From positions 1 through 22,012 of the IMG/VR virus record IMGVR_UViG_3300028374_000071: DNA of 22,012 bases; one strand, written 5' to 3'. The DNA comes from a virus. Below the pieces are notes generated by a model. It had not been told where the DNA came from and did no database searches. It was given only the letters and a program-made list of their open reading frames with translations. The position numbers and the translations under genes are program-made. Below, in pieces: positions 6,585 through 18,716 of the stretch; the first letter of the stretch is position 1, and every line of letters starts with the position of its first letter.

Positions 6585-6607
6585 AAGGGGCTACGGCCCC
6601 TTTTTTT
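6585..6607 (+). terminator. Strong rho-independent terminator with UACG tetraloop
   Basis: A 7-bp stem AAGGGGC / GCCCCTT closes a TACG loop. In RNA this is C(UACG)G, the exceptionally stable UNCG tetraloop, followed by a run of seven Ts. It ends the rightward early cluster and abuts the stop codon of the leftward gene at 6606. Confidence 0.9.
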
Positions 6608-7238
6608 ATACCTTCCAAGCTTGCGTTTTTGATCCTTTCTGGAATCTCTGTAGCGGTAAGAATAAAATCAATTCCCATGATTGGGATGGAATCTCTACAA
6701 ACTTCGATCTAACATGATCCATTCTATAAGCATGAACAGCATGTTCAAAGTATTTACTTTGAGAAAGTGCTTTAATTATTGTCCATGAGAAATCCAATTT
6801 TGTTGATTTAACAAACCTGTCCCTACTCTTATATTTCAATAGCGCCCTGAACGCTGCCATACGTAGTATAGGGGGTAAGTAGTGAAAGTTAAGCCCTAGC
6901 ACTATCTCTTTCCCTTCCTTTGATCTATAGGCATCAAACGGGATCACAAGAGGGTATCTATCCCATAGCGGTAAGGTATCTTTGTGAAGTGCATCATATT
7001 CATAGAAATACATCTTACCCAATGTCATTCCATTTTTAAACATGCTTTGATCACGAAAAATACGAGCGGTACGAACATTACTAAAGTTTTTTGTAATACG
7101 TTTTCTGAACCAATCCATACTTTTTTTAATATTACGTCTGGATTTTGGGCCTTGACTTTCAAAGTAAGATTTTTCAAGGTCTTGAAGTATTTTTAACTCA
7201 GTACCAGTAGTATTTTTGTAGTCTTTATTCTCTGCCAT
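6606..7238 (-). CDS. Late phage protein, possibly DNA end protector (gp2-like)
   Basis: A basic 210-aa protein. The N-terminal 80 residues are highly charged and helical. A central block (about 92-130) reads GKMYFYEYD, then LPLWDRYPLVIPF, then LGLNFHYLPP. This GKMYF..YD / LP.WDR.PL / GLN.HYLP pattern resembles a virion-associated family of T4-type phages that I loosely associate with the DNA-end protector gp2 or a related structural role; the exact name is uncertain. It is transcribed alone leftward from an exact T4-type late -10 box at 7286-7279, supporting a late, virion-related function. Confidence 0.7.
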   Translation of the reverse strand: MAENKDYKNTTGTELKILQDLEKSYFESQGPKSRRNIKKSMDWFRKRITKNFSNVRTARIFRDQSMFKNGMTLGKMYFYEYDALHKDTLPLWDRYPLVIPFDAYRSKEGKEIVLGLNFHYLPPILRMAAFRALLKYKSRDRFVKSTKLDFSWTIIKALSQSKYFEHAVHAYRMDHVRSKFVEIPSQSWELILFLPLQRFQKGSKTQAWKV

Positions 7239-8246: not shown

Positions 8247-8975
8247 ATGGCTTTACCAAAAATTAAACATTCAGCTTATACACATAAACTGAAAGGAATC
8301 GACAAAACTGTAAGTTTCAGACCCTATACCAATGCTGAGCAGAAAATTTTGCTACTCGCTAAAGAGGAAGGCAAAGACGATAAGACTAGAATGCTGGATG
8401 CTATTACACAGATTCTTTCTAATTGTATTATGGATAATATTGAAGTATACGATTTACCCATGTTCGATATTGAAGACATCTTTATTCGTATTAGAGAAAA
8501 AAGTGTTGGTGAAATTATCCCTGTTAAATTCAGATACAATTACGATGATGAAAATGGTGTAAAGAAAACTGATTTTGTTACAGTGAGTGTTAACATTAAA
8601 GATATTCAGGTACAGGGTGAATTCGTTAAGAAAGCCCGAAGTATCATTGTTGATAAAGCTAATAACATTGGAATCAAGCTTCGCTACCCTACATTGCGTG
8701 ATATTAAAGAGCTTGAAGGTTCAACGGAAGATTCTGATTTATTGTCCCGTTGTATTGAAGTGATCTTTGATGAAAATGAAGTATATGACCCAAAAGATCA
8801 AACAAAAGAAGAAATGGATGAATTTATTGATGACATCGAAGCTATTCCTATGTTGGAGATAAAAGAATTCTTTGAGAAAATGCCTAAAATCTTTTACGAA
8901 ACGCAAGTGTATAAGAAGCATCTTGACGAAACAGAAACAGTTAAGATTCAGGGGTTGGAAGGTTTTTTTACTTAA
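8247..8975 (+). CDS. 26: Baseplate hub subunit/assembly protein (T4 gp26-like)
   Basis: A 242-aa protein with the gp26-type layout: an N-terminal PKIKHSAYTHKLKG segment, FRPYTNAEQKILLLA, a helix with ISNCIMDN-like content, the LPMFDIEDIFIRIREKSVGE block at about residues 68-87, and an acidic C-terminal half. In T4 gp26 is needed to build the baseplate hub. GGAAGG precedes the start. Just before the stop lies a run of seven Ts in a slippery register (T TTT TTT, 8963-8969), and the stop overlaps the next ATG (TAATG), so a fraction of ribosomes could shift -1 into the following ORF. Confidence 0.75.
   Translation: MALPKIKHSAYTHKLKGIDKTVSFRPYTNAEQKILLLAKEEGKDDKTRMLDAITQILSNCIMDNIEVYDLPMFDIEDIFIRIREKSVGEIIPVKFRYNYDDENGVKKTDFVTVSVNIKDIQVQGEFVKKARSIIVDKANNIGIKLRYPTLRDIKELEGSTEDSDLLSRCIEVIFDENEVYDPKDQTKEEMDEFIDDIEAIPMLEIKEFFEKMPKIFYETQVYKKHLDETETVKIQGLEGFFT
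8963..8969 (+). other. Candidate -1 ribosomal frameshift site (T TTT TTT)
   Basis: In the gp26-like frame the codons are GGT TTT TTT ACT TAA, so the seven Ts form a perfect X XXY YYZ heptamer. Slippage by -1 reads on through TAC TTA ATG into the 66-aa ORF, which is open upstream to position 8945. No obvious stem-loop directly follows, but a GGAAGG Shine-Dalgarno-like stimulator at 8957-8962 lies just upstream, although it is closer to the slip site than typical stimulators. Confidence 0.45.
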
Positions 8976-15416: not shown

Positions 15417-16010
15417 CTATTCATTTTCTTCGTCAATTTCACTCTGGATAATTTCAACACCAGCAACAACCCTATCATGTAGTTCTTCTGAGCTAAGATA
15501 CACATCACCACCAGCCAGAATGCTTTTTACTTCCTTTTTGGTGAAATATGGTCTATAGAGTTCCATACAAATCTTTTTAATCAGTATACTGGTTGCTTCC
15601 GCTGCTTTCAAGTTTTCACTGACTTTTCCACCAATAATAGTTGATGCATCATGGAACATCGCATGAGCAAAAGGATACACTACAAACGATTTTCCTGCAA
15701 AGAAAATCAACGTACCCGCTGATGCAACCTGACCATCTGCATGACACACAATATGTGCGGGGGAGCGTAACATTGCATGGACTATAGATATAGTTGTTTC
15801 TAATGATCCACCCGGAGTGTTGATGTACATATTAATTACATCTGTTTCCTCTGCCAAATCCATGATAGTGATCATATCAATATAATCATTAATATCCTCA
15901 CTCACGCTTCCATAGATATAGAAATTATGGATTACCCCTGCTGGATATGCTCTATGCTCTACAGTATTTGAAGAACCTACTAGTATTGACTGATCTACTT
16001 TTTTACTCAT
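15417..16010 (-). CDS. ClpP-like serine protease (S14 family)
   Basis: A 197-aa protein with the ClpP fold signatures: INTPGGS at 63-69 (oxyanion loop), the nucleophile Ser97 in GQVASAGT, His120 in AMFHDAS and Asp169 in GGDVYLSSEE, so the catalytic triad appears intact. Length matches ClpP (about 200 aa). The start is ATG 16010, which overlaps the stop of the A1-like gene (ATGA) and has TAGGTG just upstream; a start five codons earlier is less likely. Phage ClpP-like proteins are often prohead proteases, but this gene sits among replication and takeover genes, so degradation of host or phage regulators is an alternative. Confidence 0.85.
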   Translation of the reverse strand: MSKKVDQSILVGSSNTVEHRAYPAGVIHNFYIYGSVSEDINDYIDMITIMDLAEETDVINMYINTPGGSLETTISIVHAMLRSPAHIVCHADGQVASAGTLIFFAGKSFVVYPFAHAMFHDASTIIGGKVSENLKAAEATSILIKKICMELYRPYFTKKEVKSILAGGDVYLSSEELHDRVVAGVEIIQSEIDEENE

Positions 16011-17626
16011 ACACCTACCCGCCATTTTCCGTTTTTAATTGTTATGATACATCGTTTGCCATTTGGGTATGTTACGATATGTGAATTGCTCCATGAGCTA
16101 CCACCAATATTATATTCCATATCCAATGAACCACTAACCCCTGCATAATAAACACCATCTTTAATCATGGCTGTATGAGTATGACCAACGTTATATCGAC
16201 TACCCATTCTCTGAAAAACACCTACACCACCTCGACTACCATTAGCACCGTTATGGCCGTGTTGACCACACTCAATACCATTCCCATCTTCGTCACATAT
16301 ACGGAATGATTCGTCTGTTTTAAGAAATCTGAGGTGTGATAACTCTTTACAATTCCACTTCACAGCCCATTCAAAGATTGAGAAATCGTCTTCCCCACGC
16401 TCAATTGTTCTGTATTTCTTCAACTGACATTCAAGAAAGAAGATCGCATTTTCAGGATCAGTTTTGTAATCTGAATTCTTCAACCACTTCTCAAGTGCAA
16501 GATCATGGTTTGATTCAACAATTACAGTCTGGCAAAAATCTCTTTCCATCATTTGCAAGGTATCAATCACATCAAAAATGTTATCTTTTACAGAATCGTT
16601 GCCTCGTAGATGTTTTTTGAACCTGAAATATGGATCACCAATGTTATGATGGTTTCTGCTAGTAAAATCCAATACATCATTGCCAAACTGATATTTTGGT
16701 CTTAAAATATCAATAATGCTGTCTTCTCTACCAAATGAAACATCGTATACTCTATGGTCTTTCTTCTCAGAGTGCAAATCACCCCAATTGATAGCCTCAA
16801 CATAGTCAGAATGATAAACACCATTCGGTGTGTAGTATTGATTTAAGTCATAAAAACAACCCGTGTCTTTTTCTGCAACCAACTGACGAACAAAAGCATC
16901 ACCATCTTGATCAACTTCAATAAGTAACGCACCAAACACATGATGAAATTCAGCTTTCTGACCAGCTTTTTTCTGGATATAGTTGCGCTTGGTAACAGAG
17001 CCAGTGGTGTACATCATTTTTGCAGGAAGTGATTTATGAGTTGGGATCGACTCAAGCTGCATTTTGGCATGTGGTACAATAGCAGATGCGCTTCTAGTGT
17101 AGCTGTGAAGGCCACTAAGAGGGTTCACTGCTGTAGGCAGTACGTTGAGTTCCCCACACCATTGAAGCTCGTCACAGATCATCACAGGCTTGTCTAGGAT
17201 GTATGACTTGATCCGTGGATCGTACCATATTTCTTCATCGTCACTTCCTTTTTGAAGATTAAGAAACCCACTTTTATTGTATGTGAAAGTACCACAAAGA
17301 ATTTTGGCATTTTTCTGTTCAGCCAAAACTTCAAGACTGTCTACAAACTTGTTGTGTACAAATGTGTTGTTCTGAGCAGAAATAGCAATATATGTACCCT
17401 GCCCCAAAACTTCAATGTCTTCATGATGATCATTGATACTACCAGCCGCTACAGGTCTTTCCCCGTAATCAGCCCACCACTTAGTATACGTTTTCTTCAT
17501 AAGAAAATCATGAAGTGTTGATTTTGCTACCCCTGTAAGTTGGCTAATTTGGACTAATTTTAAATCATCCTGTTTATATCGCAAAATTTCTAACTTTACG
17601 TTATCATCTTCTAAAGGCGATGCCAT
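16007..17626 (-). CDS. T5 A1-like metallophosphoesterase with N-terminal helix-turn-helix
   Basis: A 539-aa protein. Residues 24-45 read like a helix-turn-helix (QISQLTGVAKSTLHDFL). The C-terminal half carries calcineurin-type metal-binding motifs: NWGDLH at 280-285, ESNHD at 371-375, GQHGHNG at 454-460 and GHTHT at 481-485. Size and layout resemble T5 A1 (about 556 aa), the pre-early protein needed for host DNA degradation and second-step DNA transfer. In this phage the gene lies between primase and a ClpP-like protease, with a 1-base gap to the primase start side and ATGA overlap to clpP-like. Identification as an A1 relative is from motif pattern and length; the enzyme activity (nuclease or phosphatase) is inferred. 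Confidence 0.7.
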   Translation of the reverse strand: MASPLEDDNVKLEILRYKQDDLKLVQISQLTGVAKSTLHDFLMKKTYTKWWADYGERPVAAGSINDHHEDIEVLGQGTYIAISAQNNTFVHNKFVDSLEVLAEQKNAKILCGTFTYNKSGFLNLQKGSDDEEIWYDPRIKSYILDKPVMICDELQWCGELNVLPTAVNPLSGLHSYTRSASAIVPHAKMQLESIPTHKSLPAKMMYTTGSVTKRNYIQKKAGQKAEFHHVFGALLIEVDQDGDAFVRQLVAEKDTGCFYDLNQYYTPNGVYHSDYVEAINWGDLHSEKKDHRVYDVSFGREDSIIDILRPKYQFGNDVLDFTSRNHHNIGDPYFRFKKHLRGNDSVKDNIFDVIDTLQMMERDFCQTVIVESNHDLALEKWLKNSDYKTDPENAIFFLECQLKKYRTIERGEDDFSIFEWAVKWNCKELSHLRFLKTDESFRICDEDGNGIECGQHGHNGANGSRGGVGVFQRMGSRYNVGHTHTAMIKDGVYYAGVSGSLDMEYNIGGSSWSNSHIVTYPNGKRCIITIKNGKWRVGV

Positions 17627-17627
17627 T

Positions 17628-18659
17628 TTATACCTTTTTCCATTTATTGAATTCTAATTTTGCCATCAAACCTTTATAGGTACATTTACGAATTACACTC
17701 ATTAGCATTTTTTGAGAAACACCAGATTGTATCATATCATTTATATCAAGTTTTGAATCTGGTGAGTTAGGCCAAATAACCACTGACCTACCTTGATCTA
17801 TAGCCCCACCGATCAACTTCACAATATCGGGATTTCTAGGTTCGTTATCAAATATCAATACATCTGCATTGGATCGGGTTAGGTTAGCATCACAGGTTGC
17901 CATACAGTTATCGACAAACAGAGAATCCAACGGCCCCTCTACACAGTATGTAGTCTTGCTTTGGTCTATAGACTCCAATCCATAAAATTTATCAACATCA
18001 TTACTAAGCTTAATCGTGATGTACTTCATCTTTGATTCTTTAAGTGAACGGCCCTGTATAAGCTTGATTGAGCCTTCCTCATCATAAAAAGGTATCACTA
18101 TCCTCTGTTCATTGTCAACTAGTTTTTTCGATGATTCCTTGTTTAATTGCATACAAACTGCTTTAAAATCATCCGTATACAATAATCTTTCTATTTGAGC
18201 TAACTTAAATCCACGGTTGTATAAATAAACCGTAGCAGGGTGATTTTCTTTTAAATTCACACAGTTAATGGTGTGTTTTAAGTGTTTGATTGACCTACTG
18301 AATTCTGGTTTGTTATTAGAAGATTTTAAGATAGTGTTAACGGGTTCTTCTGTATGATGATTTCTAGGTTTAAAGGAATCCAATAAAGTTTCTTTTTTGT
18401 ATTCTTCAAACTGTTGTGGTGAGTAGTCTTTAACAAAAACAAAGAATGAATGAGAGTAGTTGCAGTTTTTACACTGAACATTCAAGCTACCCTTTCTTAC
18501 ATAAAAATAAAATCGCGTTATCGTACTACTCTTTTTTGAGTCACCGCAGAAAGGACAACGACAAACATGTACATTATTCTTGACTTTTTTGAAACGCTTT
18601 AGTCCAAGGCTCAAGCGTTTCATCCAAGCTTCATCTACGTACAATTTCGTTTGAATCAT
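17628..18659 (-). CDS. 61: DNA primase (T4 gp61-like)
   Basis: A 343-aa protein, almost exactly the size of T4 gp61 (342 aa). The N-terminal zinc-binding domain shows C35-P-F-C38 with GDSKKS and C63-K-N-C66; the TOPRIM core shows the EGPLDS motif at 241-246 and FDNEP at 270-274. It makes RNA primers with the replicative helicase. The open frame extends to a TTG at 18716, but the -35 box of its promoter lies there, so real initiation must be one of ATG 18671, 18662 or 18659. GGAA is best placed for 18659. The gene is followed directly by the A1-like gene. Confidence 0.85.
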   Translation of the reverse strand: MIQTKLYVDEAWMKRLSLGLKRFKKVKNNVHVCRCPFCGDSKKSSTITRFYFYVRKGSLNVQCKNCNYSHSFFVFVKDYSPQQFEEYKKETLLDSFKPRNHHTEEPVNTILKSSNNKPEFSRSIKHLKHTINCVNLKENHPATVYLYNRGFKLAQIERLLYTDDFKAVCMQLNKESSKKLVDNEQRIVIPFYDEEGSIKLIQGRSLKESKMKYITIKLSNDVDKFYGLESIDQSKTTYCVEGPLDSLFVDNCMATCDANLTRSNADVLIFDNEPRNPDIVKLIGGAIDQGRSVVIWPNSPDSKLDINDMIQSGVSQKMLMSVIRKCTYKGLMAKLEFNKWKKV

Positions 18660-18670
18660 CATTTTTTCCA

Positions 18671-18678
18671 TATAAATA
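18671..18678 (+). promoter_or_regulatory. T4-type late promoter (TATAAATA)
   Basis: An exact late -10 box 41 bases before the ATG at 18719. It overlaps the 5' end of the leftward primase transcript unit, so rightward late and leftward early initiation share the same 45 bases. Confidence 0.7.
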
Positions 18679-18687
18679 GTTAGATAA

Positions 18688-18716
18688 ATTATAACAAAAT
18701 CAAAAGACGTAATCAA
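18688..18716 (-). promoter_or_regulatory. Strong leftward promoter of primase (TTGATT-17-TATAAT, extended -10)
   Basis: On the minus strand TTGATT (18716-18711) and TATAAT (18693-18688) are 17 bases apart, and the -10 is preceded by TGT to give an extended TGTTATAAT. Transcription would start near 18681. Confidence 0.7.

Follow-up and report, generated by a model that had tools for sequence, protein, structure and literature searches.

The A1 protein of bacteriophage T5 is required for host DNA degradation (PMC13250531, PMC8541194) and has been called a putative DNase (PMC7232257); by what mechanism it brings about the loss of host DNA is a decades-old question. Outside T5, A1 has been known since 2012, with previous reports from phiCbK (PMC3556154), KASIA (PMC8541194), jumbo phages (PMC7824862) and BONAISHI (PMC6207643). 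Here we analyzed an added member of this known family, encoded in positions 1 to 22,012 of IMG/VR virus record IMGVR_UViG_3300028374_000071. This stretch, referred to below as the window, is a genome fragment of 22 kb. The original prediction had described the gene as a T5 A1-like metallophosphoesterase (MPE) fused to a helix-turn-helix (HTH) within a T4-type phage. Its open reading frame (ORF) lies on the minus strand, starts with an ATG at 17626 that is preceded by a ribosome-binding-like AAAGG, and ends with a stop codon at 16009–16007. The gene and its predicted domains are as follows.

16007..17626, minus strand: A1-family gene, 539 amino acids (ORF; phrog_1745 E=4.5e-196; tblastn identities to relatives)
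17459..17626, minus strand: predicted N-terminal HTH module, residues 1–56 (AlphaFold helices 8–19, 24–31, 35–42 and 48–54; weak Pfam HTH_IclR match; relatives)
16808..17458, minus strand: predicted middle domain, residues 57–273, MPE-like fold without metal motifs (pseudo-MPE; separate fold prediction and structural matches)
16010..16807, minus strand: predicted C-terminal catalytic MPE domain, residues 274–539 (structural matches to MPE proteins)

A profile search placed the protein in the T5 A1 family and not in an unrelated metallophosphatase family, as had been proposed. The PHROG 1745 profile, ‘DNA transfer protein’ (T5 A1), matched residues 43–536 over profile positions 55–541 of 542 and thus covered the whole core, at an E-value that chance could not produce. 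T5 A1 itself (556 amino acids) was 43–44% identical to the window A1 in the alignment, and enterobacterial T5-type A1s reached ∼46–48% identity across residues 56–535 by tblastn. The tblastn search recovered relatives from 1,125 of 50,697 phage records, nearly all of them (1,110 of 1,125) spanning at least 80% of the query, and the closest was gp189 of Pseudomonas phage pf16 (59.6% identity). The A1 family is widespread and old in phages, and the suggestion of a wider role for it agrees with the occurrence of relatives in myo-, sipho- and podoviruses of Pseudomonas, Shewanella, Vibrio, Caulobacter, rhizobia, Paracoccus, Flavobacterium and Cellulophaga. A Pfam scan of the window A1 gave no Metallophos match and a direct PDB sequence search no relative; the A1 of Vibrio phage PG07, which is T5-like and distant, matched PF00149 Metallophos with E=0.00047, narrowly missing the curated cut-off.

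An identical A1 protein is encoded on a 17.8 kb IMG/VR contig, IMGVR_UViG_3300035034_001642 (L004 and L021 in our set), which is probably the same phage or a nearly identical one. Relatives were also found in bacterial contigs of 0.3–1.4 Mb from Rhizobium, Microvirga, Ochrobactrum, Acidisoma and others (L102, L105, L106, L109, L110 and L114). An integrase gene lies ∼10 kb from A1 in L105 and 30–70 kb away in several other bacterial contigs, which suggests that these A1 genes belong to prophages. The A1s of two further contigs, L111 (114 kb) and L112 (118 kb), group with that of Bradyrhizobium phage BDU-MI-1 (121 kb), all three having D in place of the first His of GHxH, and the two contigs may be whole phage genomes inside bacterial assemblies.

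In the C-terminal domain, conserved residues were counted over 86 A1-family sequences.

16772..16783, minus strand: motif I, GDLH, residues 282–285 (D283 and H285 in 86/86)
16676..16678, minus strand: D317, putative bridging aspartate at the motif II position (86/86; role from motif order)
16502..16513, minus strand: motif III, SNHD, residues 372–375 (N373 and H374 in 86/86)
16259..16261, minus strand: H456, motif IV (86/86)
16172..16186, minus strand: motif V, GHTHT, residues 481–485 (H482 in 83/86, H484 in 86/86)

The calcineurin-type motif series on which the original prediction was based was thus present at its proposed places, with the metal-site residues kept in 83–86 of the 86 proteins. 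Assigned from motif order, the conserved residues are a calcineurin-like metal site (DxH, bridging D, NH[DE], H, GHxH). An AlphaFold model of the window A1, built from an input alignment of 65 sequences, had a mean predicted local distance difference test score (pLDDT) of 92.6 and contained both expected elements, an MPE fold in the C-terminal half and helices in an HTH arrangement near the N-terminus. The C-terminal half of the model (residues 274–537) matched PolD DP1 with Z 13.2 (3.4 Å, 203 residues), LpxH and YfcE with Z 12.5, Mre11 with 12.1 and Mre11/SbcD with 11–12. With scores tied within ∼1 Z unit, the modelled fold supports an MPE and not any particular substrate. A Foldseek search of the whole model against the PDB returned nothing under E 0.001, with Mre11 among the top matches; that other folds are missing from these results is not evidence.

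The middle domain also resembled an MPE when folded by itself (pLDDT 90.3). All 50 chains listed in a structural search belonged to the MPE superfamily, headed by Vps29 (Z 9.9, 3.5 Å, 146 residues), and the top Foldseek matches were Vps29, a polymerase delta-type small subunit and PP1. Vps29 and the polymerase small subunits are known not to have a working MPE site. A motif scan of the middle domain found no NHD and no GHxH, and the sole DxH-like string of the region, DHH at 66–68, is unconserved and lies ahead of the fold. Five other residues of the domain, Q85, Y116, P164, T165 and G222, were present in 86/86 sequences. We rejected an internal duplication at the sequence level: when the middle and C-terminal domains were aligned with hhalign, the probability was 0.1%, which did not exceed that of controls with shuffled columns or reversed sequence. 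Because the two domains have no sequence similarity, the argument for a second MPE comes entirely from the predicted structure, in which A1 resembles two MPEs in a row, one degenerate and one active.

At the N-terminus, helices 8–19, 24–31 and 35–42 adopt the predicted HTH arrangement (pLDDT ∼82–94 for the N-terminal helices). The Pfam score of the window A1 itself was weak (HTH_IclR, 15.2 bits, E 0.019, below the cut-off of 22). Pfam HTH families were matched in many relatives, most commonly HTH_23 (19/65), and a family N-terminal HTH profile also detected members outside its building set, namely those of pf16, KASIA, Vibrio 1.121.O and Slicko01. Used alone as query, the N-terminal segment found nothing beyond A1 relatives, apart from weak matches to unrelated proteins. 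The model, the Pfam matches in relatives and the family profile bear out the proposed HTH, and the latter two rule out the idea that the fusion is peculiar to the window phage, since most non-T5 A1s carry one. Two relatives have longer N-termini (L053:5800-7548 and L025:5767-7563), with two tandem HTH-like matches in L053 and a similar arrangement, by eye, in L025. The T5-like A1s, from enterobacterial and Vibrio T5-like phages, were not matched by the HTH profile and instead have an N-terminal stretch with NF[YW]GKRL. This module is absent from the window A1 and, being limited to the T5-like subgroup, is not a defining trait of the family; hhalign of the window A1 N-terminus against the T5-type one gave 0.2% probability.

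The distribution of A2, the partner of A1 in T5, was consistent with this split. A2 (phrog_1725) was found in 888 records, which by host counts are those of T5-like phages. Among 18 A1-bearing records searched with phrog_1725 only T5 was positive, with none in the 17 non-T5 records, T4-type relatives included; in the records tested, an HTH-bearing A1 goes without A2. T5 (AY543070) has a second A2-like gene at 64174-64581, outside the terminal repeats (phrog_1725 E=2.9e-51). Our hypothesis is that the HTH and A2 stand in for one another. It is weakened by the fact that the T5-like A1s form one branch and hence amount to one evolutionary event. Strict mutual exclusion was rejected, as it holds only partly: the A1s of the Bacteroidetes phages phi4:1 and elemoA have no recognizable HTH, and for phi4:1 no A2 was found either.

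The two genes flanking A1 place it in a T4-type setting.

17628..18716, minus strand: T4-type DNA primase, directly upstream of A1 (phrog_47 E=9.3e-77; syntenic in at least 20 relatives)
15417..16025, minus strand: ClpP-like serine protease, overlapping the A1 stop (PF00574 E=3.1e-15; syntenic in T4-type relatives)

The 3′ end of A1 shares 19 nt with the start of the ClpP-like gene, whose product is related to head maturation proteases yet is sited in a replication region. More than 20 relatives retained the primase–A1 order, with ClpP coming next in most T4-type ones. Elsewhere, the window encodes a T4 baseplate protein (8247-8975, PF12322 T4_baseplate E=1.4e-46) and a T4-type ligase (phrog_114), as well as ThyX, PhoH and MazG. 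The primase, baseplate and ligase matches uphold the assignment of the phage as T4-type, and judged by its genes the context of A1 within the 22 kb fragment is T4-type. The window is without capsid genes; a gp23-type capsid gene (E < 1e-130) was present in pf16 and in three long IMG/VR contigs with close A1 relatives, and also in Alishewanella phage Slicko01, whose A1 is more distant.

We put the probability that the window A1 is a metal-dependent DNase or DNA-acting phosphodiesterase at roughly one half, most likely an enzyme that cuts DNA by chemistry like that of Mre11 and PolD DP1. In favor of it are the family match, the near-invariant metal-site residues and the presence of the PolD DP1 exonuclease and Mre11/SbcD among the best fold matches. 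The N-terminal HTH would bring A1 to DNA, and the C-terminal MPE, with two metals on D283, H285, D317, N373, H456, H482 and H484, would hydrolyze phosphodiester bonds. Stacked on the catalytic MPE, the degenerate middle domain would perhaps act as a built-in partner, like the second subunit of the Mre11/SbcD dimer. Made along with primase and not as a pre-early injection factor, A1 would degrade host DNA, supplying nucleotides to the phage nucleotide-metabolism genes, or would process DNA in replication. We infer the nuclease activity, its substrate, the use of the HTH and the role of the middle domain. A DNA phosphodiesterase was judged likeliest because it accounts at once for the phenotype in T5, the HTH, the gene neighborhood and the intact metal site. 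Across unrelated phages, primase accounted for 17 of 92 upstream proteins, with helicases, exonuclease V and methyltransferases also found there; downstream neighbors included ClpP, RuvC, ribonucleotide reductase, deoxynucleoside monophosphate kinase and DNA polymerase, and in KASIA, A1 comes after a 5′-3′ exonuclease and RuvC. By itself this neighborhood is weak evidence, as phage genomes group their replication modules together in any case.

Several observations weigh against a DNA phosphodiesterase. The non-nucleases LpxH and YfcE score within Z 1 of DP1, so that the fold leaves the substrate unfixed. A gp47-like MPE of 360–365 amino acids also occurs in T4-type relatives, which means that A1 is not the sole candidate for a DNA-cleaving MPE; its coexistence with A1 likewise leaves a replacement of gp46/47 by A1 unsupported. 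Furthermore, A1 is present in bacterial chromosomes, in some with an integrase 10–70 kb off, which would be unexpected for a plain destroyer of host DNA, and for T5 A1 an association with both RNA polymerase and membranes has been reported (PMC3556154). As a tentative extension that we regard as possible, A1s may be double MPEs in a single chain, degenerate plus active, that work like an internal Mre11/SbcD dimer and carry an interchangeable N-terminal module for targeting. This module would be an HTH in most phages, and T5-like phages would have swapped it and come to rely on the separate DNA-binding A2.

A nuclease of replication or repair that processes primers, ends or junctions in phage DNA, as opposed to host DNA, would fit the position of A1 directly after primase in T4-type relatives, its adjacency in other phages to genes for RuvC, exonuclease, helicase and polymerase, and its presence in probable prophages. 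We consider this unlikely, as the T5 phenotype is a loss of host DNA degradation and T4-type relatives already encode the gp47-like MPE. Class III cyclic-nucleotide phosphodiesterases have the same MPE motifs, which counts for a role in counter-defence, with A1 as a phosphodiesterase destroying the cyclic (oligo)nucleotide signals of cyclic oligonucleotide-based antiphage signaling systems (CBASS) or type III CRISPR. Although such an activity was predicted for the jumbo-phage T5 A1 orthologues (PMC7824862), it seems improbable here: A1 adjoins replication and nucleotide-metabolism genes, not counter-defence genes, its predicted HTH is of a DNA-binding kind, and host DNA is not degraded by T5 A1 mutants (PMC8541194). 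We find it similarly hard to favor a transcription switch, in which A1 would use its HTH to bind host RNA polymerase and/or promoters and so alter gene expression, the MPE domain being secondary. Co-precipitation of T5 A1 with RNA polymerase (PMC3556154) and the HTH in the model would suit it, and the KASIA authors favored it, A2 being absent (PMC8541194); conservation of the metal-site residues in 83–86 of 86 proteins from very divergent phages argues that catalysis matters.

Returning to the DNA phosphodiesterase and its descent, we built an unrooted maximum-likelihood tree of the A1 core. The T4-type A1s formed their own clade (98/89), separate from the T5 A1s, and all T5-like A1s fell on one side of a branch that was not firmly supported (79/94). 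A1 is a long-standing resident of the T4-type lineage. These data do not support a recent arrival from T5, which we rejected because of the separate clade, the conserved primase–A1–ClpP order and the lack of A2 in the 17 non-T5 records. Together with the replication neighborhood, these results speak against a laterally exchanged T5 takeover module, one of the two possibilities raised in the original prediction; the clade, the missing A2 and the replication locus also mean that the role in resuming DNA injection is not transferable from T5. Despite whole-core similarity to T5 A1, a recently acquired pre-early module acting with A2 in second-step DNA transfer, as in T5, is therefore very improbable, given the separate clade, an A2 confined to records with T5-like hosts, the different N-terminal module and the primase-linked locus.

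Apart from A1, the window contains a 210-amino-acid ORF at 6606-7238 (minus strand), on the strand opposite to the adjoining tail tube and baseplate genes. A profile search of it gave no family match, and a 52% identical copy is present in the relative contig L045.

Three results seem to be new here, as we found no open-licence paper stating them: a map of the domains as HTH, pseudo-MPE and MPE, the split between HTH and T5 module, and the separate T4-type clade. With this map, the family-wide alignment pinpoints residues for mutation, and A2-free T4-type relatives such as pf16 gp189 let the enzymatic role be separated from the two-step injection of T5. Of the described systems, gp189 of pf16 (Chakrabartyvirus, T4-related; annotated as DNA transfer protein) is like the window A1, with 60% identity over the full length, the same HTH, the same upstream primase and the same downstream ClpP-like gene, although pf16 is a different phage, without megablast DNA similarity to the window. 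T5 A1 has the same invariant metal-site residues (core identity ∼43–48%) but carries the NF[YW]GKRL module and no recognizable HTH, and its gene lies together with A2 and dmp in the first-step-transfer terminal repeat, whereas the window A1 lies between primase and ClpP genes. phiCbK gp126, KASIA p106, BONAISHI ORF256c and the jumbo-phage orthologues belong to the same family, and in phiCbK and KASIA A1 is likewise sited in replication regions (PMC3556154, PMC8541194); their carriers are siphoviruses or jumbo phages, outside the T4-type clade. Mre11/SbcD and PolD DP1 have the MPE fold and the metal-site motif series in common with the window A1, with no detectable sequence relation. Compared with Mre11/SbcD, the window A1 has primase and ClpP as neighbors and no adjoining Rad50/SbcC/gp46-type ATPase gene, and it combines an extra HTH and a second MPE-like domain in one chain.
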